From positions 1-23,786 of IMG/VR virus record IMGVR_UViG_3300030104_007214: DNA of 23,786 nucleotides; one strand, given 5' to 3'. The notes below the pieces were generated by a model. The model was not told the origin of the DNA. It searched no databases and worked only from the letters and a program-made list of their open reading frames with translations. The position numbers were made by a program, and so were the translations under genes. Source of the DNA: a virus. Numbering within the stretch: the stretch's first letter is position 1; each line of letters starts with the position of its first letter. Positions 725 to 22,307 of the stretch are shown one piece after another.

Positions 725-957
725 GTATATTGTGTAAGTAGTTGAGGTGAACGTAGTGACCTTTTCCTTACGCTAGCAAGTCTGAAGCTTTTTTAGGGCT
801 GATACCAATTGTTTTCTGATCGTCACTGTAGGAAAACTAGTACTAAAAAAGTGATAGAGCTTACACAATATACATTGTTCTGCGAAAAAAGGCCACCTTC
901 CCGTGGTGCAGAATGTTAAGGTTAAAAGTCCTCACTTATATTATGACTGATTTAACC
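725..957 (+). ncRNA. Candidate structured RNA between uvsX and rnh
   Basis: This ORF-free stretch is visibly richer in G and C patches than its surroundings and packed with complementary segments. A perfect 14-bp pairing joins 725-738 with 860-873. Inside it, 755-760 complements 822-827 (6 bp), 762-771 complements 828-836 (9 bp, one bulged T), and 788-796 complements 843-851 (9 bp). These three pairs are ordered A-B-C-A'-B'-C', so they are pseudoknotted or mutually exclusive. Two hairpins follow: 878-883/908-913 with an inner 893-896/903-906 stem, and 920-930/945-957 (11 bp with a 2-nt GA bulge). Neither ends in a U-run, so they are not classic terminators. I recognise no known RNA family. 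The strand follows the neighbouring genes; exact ends are unknown. Confidence 0.6.
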
Positions 958-5667: not shown

Positions 5668-8600
5668 ATGTGCATTCATGACTTTAGAACATACATAAAC
5701 GCTGACGTTACTTATTCTGCAGTTAGTCACCCACAGAGACCAAATACGTCTTCTGCCAATATTTCTTTGTTTGGACCTTTCAATAATCCAAATGTAACGG
5801 TTGGAGCCTTTGAGGCAGACTGGGCCCCTTCTACTTTTGAAGTTGACGAAGACAACGCATTTTTTAACAGTTTTGGATTACAAGAATTACTTCCAAGCCT
5901 TAATAATTTTATGTGGACTAGTTCAGCATACAACACTGACCCTAACGTAACTCAACCACCTTATTTCCCACCAAACTATAATCCAGGTTTTGGAAGTGGT
6001 TTTTGCGGTTGGAATTCAGCACAGGCAGTTATTATTTTTGCAAATACTGTATTATATCCTGTAGATGGAACAGGATTACATGTTAGAGCTGGAACGTCTT
6101 CATCTTTCACAACTCAAGCATACTATGTTAGTAATAGTTATGACAACAGTACTGTAATATCTAGTCCACTAGATGCCGTAACATTCGATCCTTCAGGACC
6201 AGGGTTAAATGGAGCAAATAAAGCAGCAAATGCACTTGCGGCTGCTATAACAAGTTCTAACGGTCAGCCAAGTTTAATATCTTGTTCTATATCTACTACA
6301 ACTATTGATGGAGATACATTAACTCTAACTAACATTGACCCTGGTAGTCATGCAAATAATTTTTGTTTTGATTTTATAGAAAAGGTAGACTTTCTAAACG
6401 GGATAGTTTCAATGAATAGCCATGATGCAATAGCTATAAATGCTGGACAAGAAGTGTGTTTTGAAGATGGCCACCAACCTGGATGCCAGTGTTCTTGGAC
6501 TCAGCTAGACGAAGGCCTTGAAACAAAGGATATGCTTAATAATTGTGTGCAAATGAATTATTTCTTTGTTGGAAGTAGTAGTTTTCATTGCGACTATTCA
6601 GCTAGTATGGCTGCTGGAAATCCTGCACCTACACAACATAATCATCCAACCTGGAAAGTAGAAACCTCAGATGGCCATGTTTGTTATGTTACCCGTGACC
6701 AAGAATTCCTAGTTTGGGATGGTGGAGGAACAACAGACAATCATTGGGAAAAGGCTGAAGACCTGGTACCGCAAACACCACAAACTTTTGCAAACTCAGA
6801 TTGGCTACTTGGTAATGCTAATCCAAATTTCTCTGGTTCTCTTAGTCATGGTTGGAATAATGCAACAAAATTAGTTTGTTGGCAAAATGATGTGTATGGA
6901 TATGTTAGGGTAAAATTATCCTATGATGATACACACCCTCACGACGGTAATAGCACATATGGAGGTTTACCTAGAGGAGACTATGGAAACAATTTAGCAG
7001 GATTACATGTTAATCCTGGATATACTATGAGAGAACCTCAACCTGATATTGGTAGGGCTGTTCATTGGATGACGACTGGAACAAATAGTTTCCAATTGGC
7101 AAATAGAATAGTAGTTAGGGGTTGGAGAGGAGAAATGTGTAGCTGTGCTCCTACTACAAATATTGACGATATAAGGTGTGGAACAACTAAATCTTGCTGT
7201 GTAAATAGTTCTGGTTCAGGCCAACCTGCCTCATTAACATATAATCAATTTATGACTACAACAACACAATCGGCGTTTAGTATATTATCATGGAGTCTTC
7301 ACCCTCATACAGAAAGCATAGATTATGATGTCAACTGGCATTATCCAAAACCTGGAGATAAAAGACAGGTTACCATGAGTATATCAACAACAAACGATTC
7401 TAATTTTCAGGTGTGTTTAACAGAATGGGCTCCTGTAGAACAGATATGTGAGCCACAACCTGAAAGCTTACTACCACAATGTCCAAGTTGTGGAGACACG
7501 TCTAAAGGAGTTATTGGCGACCTTTACAACCTACATCCTGCTACAATGTCTATAACGCATTATCAAGCACAAGACAGTTACGGAGGATTCAACCATGCAG
7601 CAGGAACGTTCCTTGATTATCAATTAGGTAATACTCCAGGAGTAGGGGTTTCAGGAAGTAAAGGCTCAAATTGGTCTATAGTTTTTTTAAGTCAATCTGG
7701 AACGAGTCCACAGACTGAATCTTATTACTATCACAATTATGAAATTGCATCAGGATCAGCAACAGCTTCTACAGCTCTACCTGCAGGAAACGAATCATAT
7801 TCGTATTGGGACCCACAATTTACTAGTTCAACCCACTATAGAAAAGCAAGCATGACAACATCATTTTTCTATATAGATTCTGCAGGCCCAGGTACTAGAT
7901 GGGCTGAAAGTCTTGCATTTGCTATAAATAAAACATGGGATAACAAAGAAGACTTTCCAGCATTTCCAGTGGCAGAGTTTAATCCTATTGCAAACGGTCT
8001 TCCTATGGGAATGGGTCATACCTCAACAAGTCTAAACGGTCTTCCTAATGAGTTCATAACTTTAAGAACTACTGGCTGCCATAACTATTGGTCACTATCT
8101 CCCCTTGGAAACGAAGCATTGCCGTTTGAGCCATATAGAATGAGTTATACACCTCACATGGATCTGCTGCAAGATAATGGAATCTATGAATCAATAGTTT
8201 ATGCAACAGGAGCAGTACCAATAGTATCTTATTCAGGTGTAGGAAACAATCATTTAGCTACATTTTACCCAGAGTCAGAATCTTTTGCAAATTCAGGTTC
8301 TTTTTGTGCGGAACAAAAGTGTTGTTTTGATTTAATAATAAACAAAGAACCTTCTTGGAATTCTTCAGAATCTTTATGTCAAGAAACGCCAGGAAGAGTA
8401 ATAAACGTAACTCAACTATTTAACGTAATAGACTTTGATGATATAGAGTGGTACGGTCCTATGGGAATGGAAATACCAGGAAATATGTCTGCAGCCGGTG
8501 AACTTAAGTTTGACCCTTTTACTGGGCTAGTTTTACCTGTCGATCAATTTTTTACTGTGGACGATGACGTAATGTTAAATGGTACTGCTTCACTTTGTTT

Positions 8601-10827
8601 TACTGCTTCAGTATCAAATTCACTATGTTGGAATGACGCAAGCTGTGACTATTCTCATAGTTTATATCACCCTACAACTTCATATACTCCAGACTGTTGT
8701 GCAGATATTTCAGGATGTTCTACTGTTTATCTTAACCCTGGAGTAAGTGCTGGACCAGATCAAATAATATGTTTACCTACACTTTCTGTACATGGACAAC
8801 TAACTTCACAACAACCAATGGGAACTCCATGGCCACTTCAAGGCCTACCAACTTGGAGTTTTGAAGGCGAGCATGGTACCTGGACAGCAAATATTTTAAC
8901 ACCACATTCATTTTCTACAGATGTAATTATAGAGGATTATTCTCCAGGAATAACTCCACTACACGTTACTGCTTCTGGTATTTTTACTATGAGTTTAACT
9001 GTTCCACACGGACCGTGCGAGTACACTGACCATATGTATTTTGAAATAGTAGAACAGTCTTCTTCTATATTACCAGCACAAGTAGAATGCGTAAATATAG
9101 ATTCAGATTATAGAACATTTATTACAGCGTCACAGCCATCTCCAAGTGGATATGGTAACTGGACAGTTGCAGCACCAGATGCATACACTGCTTCAGCTGC
9201 CGTGACAATATACTCTCCATCAAAATTTACTACTCAGGTTCAGATTCCTTTAGATACTACAATTACCTTTTTATGGACAAGGTGTGAGATATTTAGTAGT
9301 TCTCTAGATGTATCTAGTAATGACACTCAATCTGGTATAGCAGATATAGTTTGTTGTGGGTCAGAATCTATAGACGTAACAATTACAGCCCAACCACAGG
9401 CTCCAGTACTATTAACAGGAGTAATGCAAGACTGTCCTGGTTGTGGTGCGCAAACTGCTAGTTTTGTTGGAGAACTTAATGCATTTACTGCCCATGCTTC
9501 TTGGTCTGCAAACTTTACTACTTGGACTGAAACACATTTAACTGATACGTATATTGCTTTTTCATCATCAACCCCACCATTTACTTCTGGTACAATAATA
9601 AATAGTAGTTCTAATCATTACTTAGGTACAGATACCCCTACTATTCCATATCCAAATGCGCCAGTTGGAAATCAAGTTGTCTGGGAAAATGCTCTCGTAA
9701 CTTCGCAAGTACCAACTATATATCCTTGGACAAGTTCTACTCTTGTATTCTCTTCTTCTAATGCCAACGCTTATGGAAAAGATATAGAAATACTTCTTAT
9801 GGCTAGAGGACTTCAAGGTGTATGTGACGTGACACAAAGTACAACTATATCATTTCCATTGCCTATTCAAACAGAGTCATTTGCCTTTGTTTCAGGTGGA
9901 GGATTTTATCCTTGGGAAGAACCTTATTATGTTAATTTCGATCCAGCACAAACATCTTCTGCAGGAATTTTTAATATGCCTAAATTAAATCAGATTGTTG
10001 GTATGACATTTAGGTCTGGAGGTATTGATATACTACCAACTACACATTCCAACGTAATGGCAAAACAACGTAATGTTCCAGCTCCATATTTAACAGGTGC
10101 GTTAGGTGCATGCTTATCTACTGGTGACGTTGAACCACCATCATTACTAACTGAAGGAGGATCGTTTGATACACCATATCCTACTGGTACTCCTACAGCT
10201 GACGGTCAAACTACTTGGACACCTGCTTCTACTTCAGCTGCTGACTGGGCGCTACCATGGCCAACAAATTCTGCTGGACAAACAGACCCGTCAATAATAA
10301 TTCCTACTCCTTCAGGAGGCCTTGGAGCGTATGGAGTTAATTTTGAGTGGAATGCTCGAACAGTTGCACTGTATGGAATAACACATTCAAGTTATAACCA
10401 ATGGCACGACGCACAAATGCAAATTCACTGGCATCATGTAGCATCTATGTCAAATGACGCTACAAGCTCTGCAGGTGGAGACGTATTCACGTATATGTAT
10501 GTAACGCAGTCAAATAGTAATATAAACGAACCAGCTTGGTTAACGGGTTCTTTTGCAGATACAGGAACGTCTAGAAGTTTCCAACAGGTTCCAACATTCT
10601 TCCCTCCAAATAGAAATATAAATCATATTTATGGTTGGACAAATTATGATGGTTCTAATTACAATAATAATGCTCCTTTTGCCAGAGGACTACTAGACTT
10701 TAATCGTAAAGAACAAATAACTTCAGTATCAATAATGTTTGAAGTAACCGCTTCATATACTTCTCCATCTTGTGATGAACGATTCTATTCAAGCATGTCA
10801 ATAATGTTTACTAACCAATACACGTAA
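5668..10827 (+). CDS. Giant Cys-rich secreted/virion-type protein with PKD-like modules
   Basis: A 1719-residue protein, by far the largest in the window, rich in Ser, Thr, Gly, Trp and Cys with many CC, CxC and CxxC pairs (for example CQCSW, CSCAP, CPSCGD, CCGSES, CPGCGAQ). No signal peptide or membrane segment is visible. Residues about 1022-1130 begin VSAGPDQIIC and run to LTVPHGPCEYTDHMYFEI, the pattern of Bacteroidota PKD-like modules (AGPDQ, GTW, closing Cys). A second such module follows at about 1131-1245 (YGNWTVAAPD, ITFLWTRCE). The rest shows no family I know. A role as tail fibre, adhesin or other virion surface protein is inferred from size, composition and phage context. Start at ATG 5668 sits right behind the promoter core; an in-frame ATG at 5674 is absent, so alternatives are much further in. 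It adjoins the next gene with one base between. Confidence 0.8.
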   Translation: MCIHDFRTYINADVTYSAVSHPQRPNTSSANISLFGPFNNPNVTVGAFEADWAPSTFEVDEDNAFFNSFGLQELLPSLNNFMWTSSAYNTDPNVTQPPYFPPNYNPGFGSGFCGWNSAQAVIIFANTVLYPVDGTGLHVRAGTSSSFTTQAYYVSNSYDNSTVISSPLDAVTFDPSGPGLNGANKAANALAAAITSSNGQPSLISCSISTTTIDGDTLTLTNIDPGSHANNFCFDFIEKVDFLNGIVSMNSHDAIAINAGQEVCFEDGHQPGCQCSWTQLDEGLETKDMLNNCVQMNYFFVGSSSFHCDYSASMAAGNPAPTQHNHPTWKVETSDGHVCYVTRDQEFLVWDGGGTTDNHWEKAEDLVPQTPQTFANSDWLLGNANPNFSGSLSHGWNNATKLVCWQNDVYGYVRVKLSYDDTHPHDGNSTYGGLPRGDYGNNLAGLHVNPGYTMREPQPDIGRAVHWMTTGTNSFQLANRIVVRGWRGEMCSCAPTTNIDDIRCGTTKSCCVNSSGSGQPASLTYNQFMTTTTQSAFSILSWSLHPHTESIDYDVNWHYPKPGDKRQVTMSISTTNDSNFQVCLTEWAPVEQICEPQPESLLPQCPSCGDTSKGVIGDLYNLHPATMSITHYQAQDSYGGFNHAAGTFLDYQLGNTPGVGVSGSKGSNWSIVFLSQSGTSPQTESYYYHNYEIASGSATASTALPAGNESYSYWDPQFTSSTHYRKASMTTSFFYIDSAGPGTRWAESLAFAINKTWDNKEDFPAFPVAEFNPIANGLPMGMGHTSTSLNGLPNEFITLRTTGCHNYWSLSPLGNEALPFEPYRMSYTPHMDLLQDNGIYESIVYATGAVPIVSYSGVGNNHLATFYPESESFANSGSFCAEQKCCFDLIINKEPSWNSSESLCQETPGRVINVTQLFNVIDFDDIEWYGPMGMEIPGNMSAAGELKFDPFTGLVLPVDQFFTVDDDVMLNGTASLCFTASVSNSLCWNDASCDYSHSLYHPTTSYTPDCCADISGCSTVYLNPGVSAGPDQIICLPTLSVHGQLTSQQPMGTPWPLQGLPTWSFEGEHGTWTANILTPHSFSTDVIIEDYSPGITPLHVTASGIFTMSLTVPHGPCEYTDHMYFEIVEQSSSILPAQVECVNIDSDYRTFITASQPSPSGYGNWTVAAPDAYTASAAVTIYSPSKFTTQVQIPLDTTITFLWTRCEIFSSSLDVSSNDTQSGIADIVCCGSESIDVTITAQPQAPVLLTGVMQDCPGCGAQTASFVGELNAFTAHASWSANFTTWTETHLTDTYIAFSSSTPPFTSGTIINSSSNHYLGTDTPTIPYPNAPVGNQVVWENALVTSQVPTIYPWTSSTLVFSSSNANAYGKDIEILLMARGLQGVCDVTQSTTISFPLPIQTESFAFVSGGGFYPWEEPYYVNFDPAQTSSAGIFNMPKLNQIVGMTFRSGGIDILPTTHSNVMAKQRNVPAPYLTGALGACLSTGDVEPPSLLTEGGSFDTPYPTGTPTADGQTTWTPASTSAADWALPWPTNSAGQTDPSIIIPTPSGGLGAYGVNFEWNARTVALYGITHSSYNQWHDAQMQIHWHHVASMSNDATSSAGGDVFTYMYVTQSNSNINEPAWLTGSFADTGTSRSFQQVPTFFPPNRNINHIYGWTNYDGSNYNNNAPFARGLLDFNRKEQITSVSIMFEVTASYTSPSCDERFYSSMSIMFTNQYT

Positions 10828-20352: not shown

Positions 20353-20379
20353 TAAACAGTTATGAACAAAACAATAAAT

Positions 20380-20384
20380 GGAGG
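20380..20384 (+). promoter_or_regulatory. Ribosome binding site that sets the groES start
   Basis: GGAGG with 7 nt before the ATG at 20392. An upstream in-frame ATG at 20362 would add ten residues (MNKTINGGYI) and place this site inside the coding region; the family start favours 20392. Confidence 0.75.
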
Positions 20385-20391
20385 TTATATT

Positions 20392-20685
20392 ATGATTGAA
20401 CCAATCAGAGGAAAAGTAGCAATTAAACCAGTAGATCCAGAAGAAATGACTTCAGGTGGAGTTATTATGCCTGATATTTCTCAAGAAGGAGTTAGCCAAG
20501 GAATAATAGAGGCTGTAGGACCAGCTGACGCAGTAAGTGGACAGTTTCTTGACCCTCAATGTAGAGTAGGAGATTTAGTTGCATATCCTAAAAGAGCAGC
20601 ATATACAATGGAACTAGGAGAAGAAGAGCTTTTGGTTTGTAATGAAAGAGATTTATTTTGTATTATTAAGAGAGGAGATAAATAG
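20392..20685 (+). CDS. groES: GroES co-chaperonin
   Basis: Heptameric lid of the GroEL chamber. The 97-residue length from the chosen ATG equals the usual GroES length. The start MIEPIRGKVAIKPV matches the family's N-terminal strand. The mobile loop is EEMTSGGVIMPD, with the GVIM segment in place of the GroEL-contacting GIVL. A QGIIEAVGP turn, a RVGDLVAYPK segment and the final ERDLFCIIK match the canonical order. It resembles bacterial GroES more than T4 gp31, which is only distantly related to GroES. groEL begins 2 bp after it with AGAGGAG overlapping the stop region. Presumably it caps the phage-encoded GroEL and possibly the host's. Confidence 0.92.
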   Translation: MIEPIRGKVAIKPVDPEEMTSGGVIMPDISQEGVSQGIIEAVGPADAVSGQFLDPQCRVGDLVAYPKRAAYTMELGEEELLVCNERDLFCIIKRGDK

Positions 20686-20687
20686 TT

Positions 20688-22307
20688 ATGGCAAAAGAAC
20701 TAGAATTTAATGAACCTGCTAGAAAGGGAATAAATGCTGGAGTTGAACAATTGGCTCAGGCTGTAAAATCAACATTAGGACCTAGAGGTAGAAATGTTGT
20801 TATTGAAAAAGAATACGGAGAATACCATTCAACAAAGGATGGCGTTACAGTAGCTAAAGAGGTAGAGCTAGAAAACCCTTTAGAAAATGCAGGGGCTCAA
20901 ATAGTAAAAGAGGTTTCTCAACAAACAAATGACGAAGCCGGTGATGGAACAACTACGGCTACAGTGTTAGCTTCTGAAATAATTAGAGAAGGATTTAGAA
21001 AGATAGAATCTGGAGCCCATCCAATTGAATTGAAAAGAGGTATAGATAAAGCAGTAAAATCAGTTGTAAGTTCACTAAGAAATATAAGTAAAGAAATTTC
21101 AACTGAAGACGATATTAAAAATGTTGCAACAATAAGCGCAAATAATGATGAAGAAGTAGGTAATTTAATTTCGCAAGCAATTGAGAAAGTTGGTAGAGAA
21201 GGAGTAGTCACTGTAGAAGAATCTCAAACAGGCGATACAAGATTAGAAGTTGTTGAAGGAATGCAATTTGAATCTAAATATTTATCTCCATATTTTGTGA
21301 CCAATAATAATACAATGCAGGTTGAAATGGAAAACCCATGGATATTATTATACGATAAAAAAATTACTTCTATAAAGGAAATAGTTAAAGTATTAGAAGC
21401 AGCAATCCAAGCAGATCAACAATTACTTATTGTGGCTGAAGACGTGGATGGTGAAGCTCTTGCTGGACTTATTGTAAATAAAATGAGAGGAACTTGTAAG
21501 GTTGCAGCTGTTAAAGCTCCAGGATTTGGTGAAAAGAGAAATCAATATCTAGAAGATATTGCAGCTCTAACAGGAGGAACGGTTGTATCTTATCAAAGAG
21601 GAATGAGACTAGATAAAATAACTAGTGAAGTATTTGGAACAGCATCAACAGTAACCATTGGTAGTAAATATACTACTATAGTAGATGGAGCAGGTACTCA
21701 AGAAGGAATAGAATCTCGTATAAATGCAATAAAATTTGATATAGATAACGCAACTTCTAATTACGATAAAGAACAATGTCAAGAAAGATTAGCTAAACTC
21801 GCAGGCGGAGTTGCTATACTAAGAATAGGTTCTCAATCAGAAATTGAAATGAAAGAAAAGAAAGATAGAGTAGAAGATGCACTAAATGCTACAAGAGCTG
21901 CACTAGATGAAGGTATTGTTCCTGGAGGTGGTATAGCCTTGATGAGATGTTTAGATTTAGACTTATCATTAGAAAATGATGACCAAAAATCAGGCGCAGA
22001 TATAGTACTTAAAGCAGCTAGGGCTCCATTCAAATGTATAATGGAAAATTCAGGATTAAATCCTGAGGTAATTTGGGAAAAGGTAAAGGATTCAGAGCAA
22101 AACAATGGATTTGATGCCAGAAGAGAACAAGTTGTAAATATGTTTGATGCTGGAATTATTGACCCTACTAAAGTGACTAGAGTGGCACTTGAAAAAGCTG
22201 CATCGGTAGCAGGAACACTATTAACAACCGAATGCGTAATAACTAAAAATCCAGAAGAGGCTGGAAAAGAACCATCAATGGCTGGTGGTGGCTTCGGTAT
22301 GATGTAA
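20688..22307 (+). CDS. groEL: GroEL chaperonin, full length
   Basis: ATP-driven folding chamber. At 539 aa it is full length. Visible blocks are [17 protein letters not shown] (28-44), the ATP-site [17 protein letters not shown] with D86, an apical domain containing [16 protein letters not shown] and APGFGEKRN, then [20 protein letters not shown], the intermediate/equatorial return [16 protein letters not shown], and the flexible tail AGGGFGMM, shorter than a full GGM repeat tail. All elements needed for an active ring are present. It is cotranscribed with groES. Carriage of both subunits by a phage is uncommon and may serve folding of capsid or the giant protein. Whether it came from the host lineage cannot be judged by eye. 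Confidence 0.96.

Follow-up and report, generated by a model that had tools for sequence, protein, structure and literature searches.

A putative HDV-like ribozyme and a kissing-loop RNA in series behind the uvsX gene of an environmental phage

Introduction

The HDV-like ribozymes form a class whose sequence varies widely, and its members are recognised by defining features and named parts (G1.U37, P1.1, L3, J4/2 and C75) that are established knowledge of the HDV fold. The definitions of these parts were also drawn here from work on theta ribozymes (PMC10879173), which are minimal HDV-like ribozymes of gut Caudoviricetes that cut at the 3' ends of tRNAs; about 90% of their predicted hosts are Bacteroidota, and over 80% come from gut phages (PMC10879173). 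Another described relative is drz-Fprau-1 of Faecalibacterium prausnitzii (RF02682). Structured RNAs of other kinds are known from marine T4-like phages, namely the manA and wcaG motifs (RF01745, RF01761; PMC2864571), which lie in 5' UTRs, and the L17 downstream element (RF01708; PMC2864571) is likewise structured and presumably lies in the 3' UTR of its companion gene.

The locus considered here lies in a 23,786-base IMG/VR virus record, the whole of which we call the window, and consists of the gap behind uvsX, where two structured RNAs stand in series on the + strand: element 1 (725-873) and element 2 (877-971). It is probable, in our judgement, that the 3' end of the uvsX mRNA is made by element 2, acting as an HDV-like ribozyme, and is capped by element 1. 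Element 2 resembles drz-Fprau-1 in the order P1, P2, P3, L3 and in a P1 of 7 bp; L3 reads UCUACGU in drz-Fprau-1 and UUCNCGU in element 2, and J4/2 reads CUAAGA and CYRAGA, respectively. It is unlike drz-Fprau-1 in its P2 and P4, its sub-threshold score, its phage host and its place behind what would be a structured mRNA tail. With the theta ribozymes it shares a phage-borne, HDV-like fold and a predicted cleavage site next to the 3' end of a structured RNA that lies upstream. However, the thetas have no P4 domain, whereas element 2 has an 11-bp P4 that shows compensatory changes, and it is therefore not a theta ribozyme: the arrangement is the same and the cargo is different. The upstream RNA is a tRNA in the thetas, which cut within 5 nt of its 3' end, and element 1, a short motif termed element 3 or a plain stem here; moreover, the thetas are mostly from the gut, whereas the closest relatives of the window are environmental, apparently marine, IMG/VR contigs. 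The manA and wcaG motifs are similar in being structured RNAs of marine phages, but both are in Rfam and neither matches the window, and the L17 downstream element, which belongs to another gene and host, likewise gave no match in the Rfam scan.

The uvsX-exonuclease gap

The window opens with the 3' part of uvsX (2-718, + strand), a RecA-family recombinase gene (Pfam RecA, E 4.7e-37), whose stop codon ends 6 nt upstream of element 1. The next gene downstream (1047-2093, also +) encodes a 5'-3' exonuclease (Pfam 5_3_exonuc_N and 5_3_exonuc), so that the gap is 328 nt long (719-1046). The proteins of this phage are far from those of annotated phages, the best match of the exonuclease being 42% identical and from a Microcystis phage, and a search of the window against annotated phages found no DNA match. 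Among the nearest annotated relatives, Microcystis phage Mel-JY01 has a 68-bp gap at the corresponding place, and in Flavobacterium phage immuto the genes overlap there. Elsewhere in the window are a 1719-aa ORF (5668-10827) and neighbouring ORFs (20362-22307) that resemble, on inspection of their translations, a phage-borne GroES/GroEL pair.

A sequence-only reading had singled out positions 725-957 as one unrecognised, ORF-free structured RNA with long-range pairings and unusual GC patches. A protein-coding explanation of the gap was indeed rejected, as its longest ORF is 45 aa and no notable protein is encoded, and local GC is 35-43% against 17-31% immediately downstream. No Rfam 15 family matches at threshold, and neither a tRNA nor a tmRNA was found in the window. 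The structure is real, but it belongs to two RNAs (725-873 and 877-971) rather than one. The folding energy of the region (z = -2.2) is by itself weak evidence; the case is carried by comparative evidence, and the covariation by which the reading could be checked is present as compensatory changes in related phages. These relatives were gathered by exonuclease, recombinase and DNA-pattern scans. Bacterial chromosomes were set aside as a source of homologues, a contig scan having returned two matches, both within coding sequence. Among openly licensed full texts, no description of element 1 or element 2 was found.

Element 2, a candidate HDV-like ribozyme

Of the two hairpins that the sequence-only reading had placed at 878-913 and 920-957, both exist and both covary in 34 sequences. 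They form part of a nested double pseudoknot (P1-P2-P3-P4) spanning 877-971, in which 98.8% of cells are paired over 34 distinct sequences; 12 pairs are changed on both sides, against 0 of 500 shuffles, and pairing collapses when the alignment is slid by one column. P1 (877-883, GUUCUGC, with 908-914) has 7 bp, five of them changed on both sides, and opens with a G.U pair: the first pair is GU in 30 sequences, GC in three and AU in one, the AU coming from a misaligned row, which is also the only one of the 34 to lack G1. P2 joins AAAGGC (888-893) to GCCUUU (966-971) and is invariant, with 99.5% of cells paired. P3 (895-897/905-907, ACC/GGU) closes L3 (898-904, UUCCCGU), whose consensus UUCNCGU holds in 34 of 34. 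P2 and P3 are fully formed but invariant, so covariation cannot test either. P4 is an 11-bp hairpin (920-957; strands 920-930/945-957), and seven of its pairs show two-sided changes. In J4/2 (960-965, CCAAGA; consensus CYRAGA), the predicted catalytic cytosine, C960, is C in 34 of 34 sequences and is followed by Y, R and A, the A963 column again being constant (34/34). The class is also expected to have equivalents of U20 and G25 in L3, and a P1.1 formed by L3 and the strand that follows P1; here P1.1 has one Watson-Crick pair (C900-G915) and an apparent U.U at its second position.

A strict HDV descriptor, run on both strands of 3.7 Mb, gave 36 distinct matches, all of them element 2, with C at the catalytic position in all 36 and A, G or U in none; it had been tightened once element 2 was known and is thus not independent of it. 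With a loose descriptor, the base at that position told nothing, being C in 57 matches, A in 60, T in 58 and G in 26. The same kind of catalytic-base control has been used in a published study (PMC10879173). The alignment to the Rfam model HDV-F-prausnitzii (RF02682) starts exactly at G877, with E 0.031 in a 116-nt search, and its 20.8 bits against a gathering score of 44 make it a sub-threshold match, a supporting rather than a defining criterion. It was through this match that the HDV topology was recognised. Element 2 thus has nearly every hallmark of an HDV-like ribozyme for which we looked, and cleavage is predicted between U876 and G877. The earlier suggestion of a switch or ribozyme therefore has a ribozyme signature to its credit in 877-971, but none in the interleaved part of the structure.

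Element 2 had at first been read as a small RNA or a terminator, an interpretation abandoned after the HDV topology was recognised. As a trans-acting small RNA or pseudoknotted terminator, it would end transcription at AAAGGC/GCCUUU followed by U, and this would suit the U-rich tail of most copies as well as its occurrence as a single copy per genome in varied gene contexts: a 20-base pattern from the stretch matches 45 viral contigs in varied gene contexts, and each large record that carries element 2 has one strong copy. Such a reading nevertheless fails to predict the invariant C in the CYRA junction, the sequence of L3 or the G.U that opens P1, and in L007, L017 and L106, where a tRNA gene follows at once, it would require read-through; we give it almost no credence.

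Element 1, a kissing-loop RNA

Element 1 is a 149-nt RNA (725-873) that occurs in four sequence groups, A to D, with covariation among them. Counts across groups are from 18 curated sequences, aligned in blocks with the structure in view, and those within group A from a MAFFT alignment. Its closing stem, P1 (or P0 of the ribozyme), is the perfect 14-bp helix noted earlier (725-738/860-873), a length matched in none of 1000 dinucleotide-shuffled versions of the 328-nt gap; it is the sole helix of at least 12 bp in the window at spans under about 250 nt. Eight of its 14 pairs are changed on both sides in group A (six sequences), and groups B and D have a shorter closing stem that covaries. Within it, hairpin H1 (744-769; stem 744-747/766-769, 4-5 bp) has two-sided changes at every position across groups and is weak in group A, with 83% of cells paired.

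The loop of H1 carries K1 (754-760, UAGUGAC), which pairs with K2 (822-828, GUCACUG) in the loop of P3 to form a kissing helix with two-sided changes at seven of seven positions across groups. The variants are UAGUGAC/GUCACUG in group A, UGGUGAC/GUCACCG in group B and UGAUGGC/GUCAUCA in L039, and UAUAGC/GCUAUA in group C and UAUAGU/ACUAUA in L233; the helix is 7 bp long in A and B and 6 bp in C. In group D it is not restored, three contiguous base pairs being found. P2 (788-796/843-851) has two-sided changes at all positions across groups, and four of the six pairs of P3 (811-816/832-837) covary. Between P2 and P3 lie two facing strands, GGCUGAUACCAAUU (797-810; CUGA[U/A]ACCAA) and UAGUA (838-842; CUAG with C837), single-stranded and nearly invariant: the first contains CUGAUACCAA in 14 of 18 sequences and CUGAAACCAA in the other four, UAG is present in 17 of 18, and GAUACCAA is a sequence of this core. 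Element 1 has 30 G.U cells and one A.C cell, which identifies the + strand as the RNA. In group A, invariant strands beside P2, UCUGAAGC (780-788) and GUGAUAGA (851-858), might be a kink-turn-like joint.

The sequence-only reading had proposed three interleaved pairs in the order A-B-C-A'-B'-C', of which two are real. AGUGAC/GUCACU (755-760/822-827) is an exact complement conserved as the loop-loop helix, and CUUUUUUAG/CUAAAAAAG (788-796/843-851) is an exact complement conserved as P2. The third, 762-771/828-836, fails: it is imperfect and unconserved, with 66.7% of cells paired and no pair changed on both sides, which does not exceed shuffles, and it competes with P3, which covaries. Consequently, one true pseudoknot is left in element 1. 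The alternative folds offered for that order also fall away, there being no sign of mutually exclusive structures, because the sole would-be competitor is the unconserved helix. The earlier observation is thus partly confirmed, and its interpretation is partly supported.

A search of Rfam 15 with the whole window gave element 1 no matches up to E 1 and only chance-level ones up to E 10, and element 1 is apparently an undescribed RNA family, in which the kissing loop covaries and the core is invariant. It is very unlikely to be a second self-cleaving ribozyme of a new kind: a fold as compact as this, with its kissing loop and invariant internal loop, could accommodate a catalytic core, but element 1 matches no known ribozyme family in Rfam, no conserved cleavage-site pattern was recognised in it, and such an activity would be redundant beside the HDV-like cutter.

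Distribution of element 1

Group A comprises the window, L002, L007, L008, L089 and L115, and the diverged marine phages make up groups B (L028, L030, L031, L084, L039), C (L057, L233, L143, L158, L232, L238) and D (L141, L148, L157, L219). In every case, element 1 lies directly 3' of uvsX; L233 and L238 are too short for the uvsX test, and both open on the last part of a uvsX-like gene. When 98 sources were searched with a covariance model of the core, the 23 copies that were expected came back and no others at E up to 1, and the four large records that carry element 1 have one strong copy each. On the uvsX tree its presence implies that it was gained or lost at least 6-7 times, and uvsX recombinases that are almost identical differ in it: L002 has it and L003 does not, which shows that it is dispensable. 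L037 and L025 apparently retain only parts of the closing stem. Element 1 is therefore an accessory module of fixed place, not an essential one.

Frequent gain and loss would fit an accessory function, and a role in trans is conceivable, if rather improbable: element 1 might be freed as a stable RNA in its own right, through the ribozyme in group A and through termination in the other groups, and might serve, for instance, to decoy a protein of the host or phage. The conservation of its core in sequence agrees with this, as does its retention in L058/L089, where no ribozyme adjoins it. On the other hand, a role in cis is favoured by its position: across the sequences and large records that were searched, element 1 is always directly behind uvsX and nowhere else.

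Some sister phages, which form a single clade on the uvsX tree, carry another structured RNA of about 200 nt behind uvsX (L034 2668-2900; also L035, L041, L045, L052, L102, L124 and L136). Its T-arm is perfect (GGUUCGAAUCC), it starts with a Leu-type GGUGGAAU, and a tetraloop takes the place of the anticodon arm; neither ARAGORN at standard settings nor Rfam calls it a tRNA or tmRNA. A likeness of the element 1 core to this T-arm RNA was inspected and is not conserved. Separately, contig L099 has a permuted tmRNA gene (6532-6740; Rfam RF04321, 55.7 bits, ARAGORN concordant).

Arrangement at the message 3' end

The predicted cut (U876^G877) falls 3 nt behind the closing stem of element 1. Both folds, their strand and position, the diagnostic nucleotides of the ribozyme and, in most relatives, the stem ahead of the cut emerge from the computational comparison itself. 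At most element 2 loci, a stem stands 0-4 nt ahead of the predicted cut and holds element 1, element 3 or a plain loop; plain hairpins occur in L012, L015, L019 and L130, and element 3 stems in L103 and L135. Some short plain stems are no better than shuffles, and a convincing stem upstream of element 2 was not found in L058, L106, L112, L113 and L123, so that capping is not universal. Element 3 is a short motif (UAAGACCGGCAUCA..GAA..CA) seen directly behind uvsX in L144, in the place of element 1, and also within the pre-ribozyme stem just upstream of element 2 in L035, L036, L041, L042, L103 and L099/L135.

Where element 1 occurs without the ribozyme, an intrinsic terminator follows it in L028 and L141; in L143 a simple scan found no terminator pattern behind it, though a hairpin is visible in the sequence. 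With either a ribozyme or a terminator behind it, element 1 stands where the uvsX message presumably ends. The exception is L058/L089, where a 214-aa ORF is inserted between the two elements, and element 1 is thus not tied to cleavage.

Its position just ahead of an intrinsic terminator in groups B and D, together with an aptamer-like anatomy in which an invariant asymmetric internal loop is braced by a kissing loop, might suggest a metabolite-sensing riboswitch that governs read-through from uvsX into the exonuclease operon. We regard this as distinctly unlikely, as inspection by eye showed no element 1 strand in conserved overlap with the terminator stem, element 1 lies behind and not ahead of uvsX, the most constant of its neighbours, the ribozyme and not a terminator comes next in the window, and very close relatives lack element 1 altogether.

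The favoured reading is that the gap is the 3' end of the uvsX transcript, with the two RNAs in series. Element 2 would fold as an HDV-like ribozyme and cut its own transcript between U876 and G877. Of the two products, the uvsX message would carry a 2',3'-cyclic phosphate and stop three bases past element 1's closing stem, and the downstream RNA would start at G877 with a 5'-OH. Element 1 would fold compactly, the loop of one hairpin kissing that of the P2-P3 arm beside the invariant asymmetric internal loop; it would cap, and probably protect, the 3' end so created, and a protein or ligand probably binds at the invariant loop. In phages without the ribozyme, an intrinsic terminator placed behind element 1 would do instead. 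That cleavage occurs and that it sets the mRNA 3' end we infer, as we do every function here given to element 1, 3'-end protection included.

As a separate observation, tRNA-Ala or tRNA-Gln genes lie directly behind the ribozyme in L007 (3250-3324), L017, L018, L009 and L106 (9888-9959, - strand); where the tRNA is tRNA-Ala, its gene is an insertion within the ribozyme's U-rich tail.

Implications

A published phage motif search sought minimal folds without P4 and would probably miss element 2. To our knowledge, the biological roles established for HDV-like ribozymes are few, and here a predicted one is kept across environmental phages, in no fewer than 34 distinct sequences, placed behind an interchangeable structured cap so that it could define the 3' end of a message. 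A bolder proposal, to which we incline only tentatively and on somewhat less than even terms, is that marine phages have a modular 3'-end device, in which a P4-bearing HDV-like ribozyme trims a message immediately past an exchangeable structured cap (a plain stem, element 1 or element 3), and that element 1 represents a new kissing-loop class with its own ligand or protein. If this is true, the device would be the protein-gene counterpart of the theta ribozymes that trim tRNAs.
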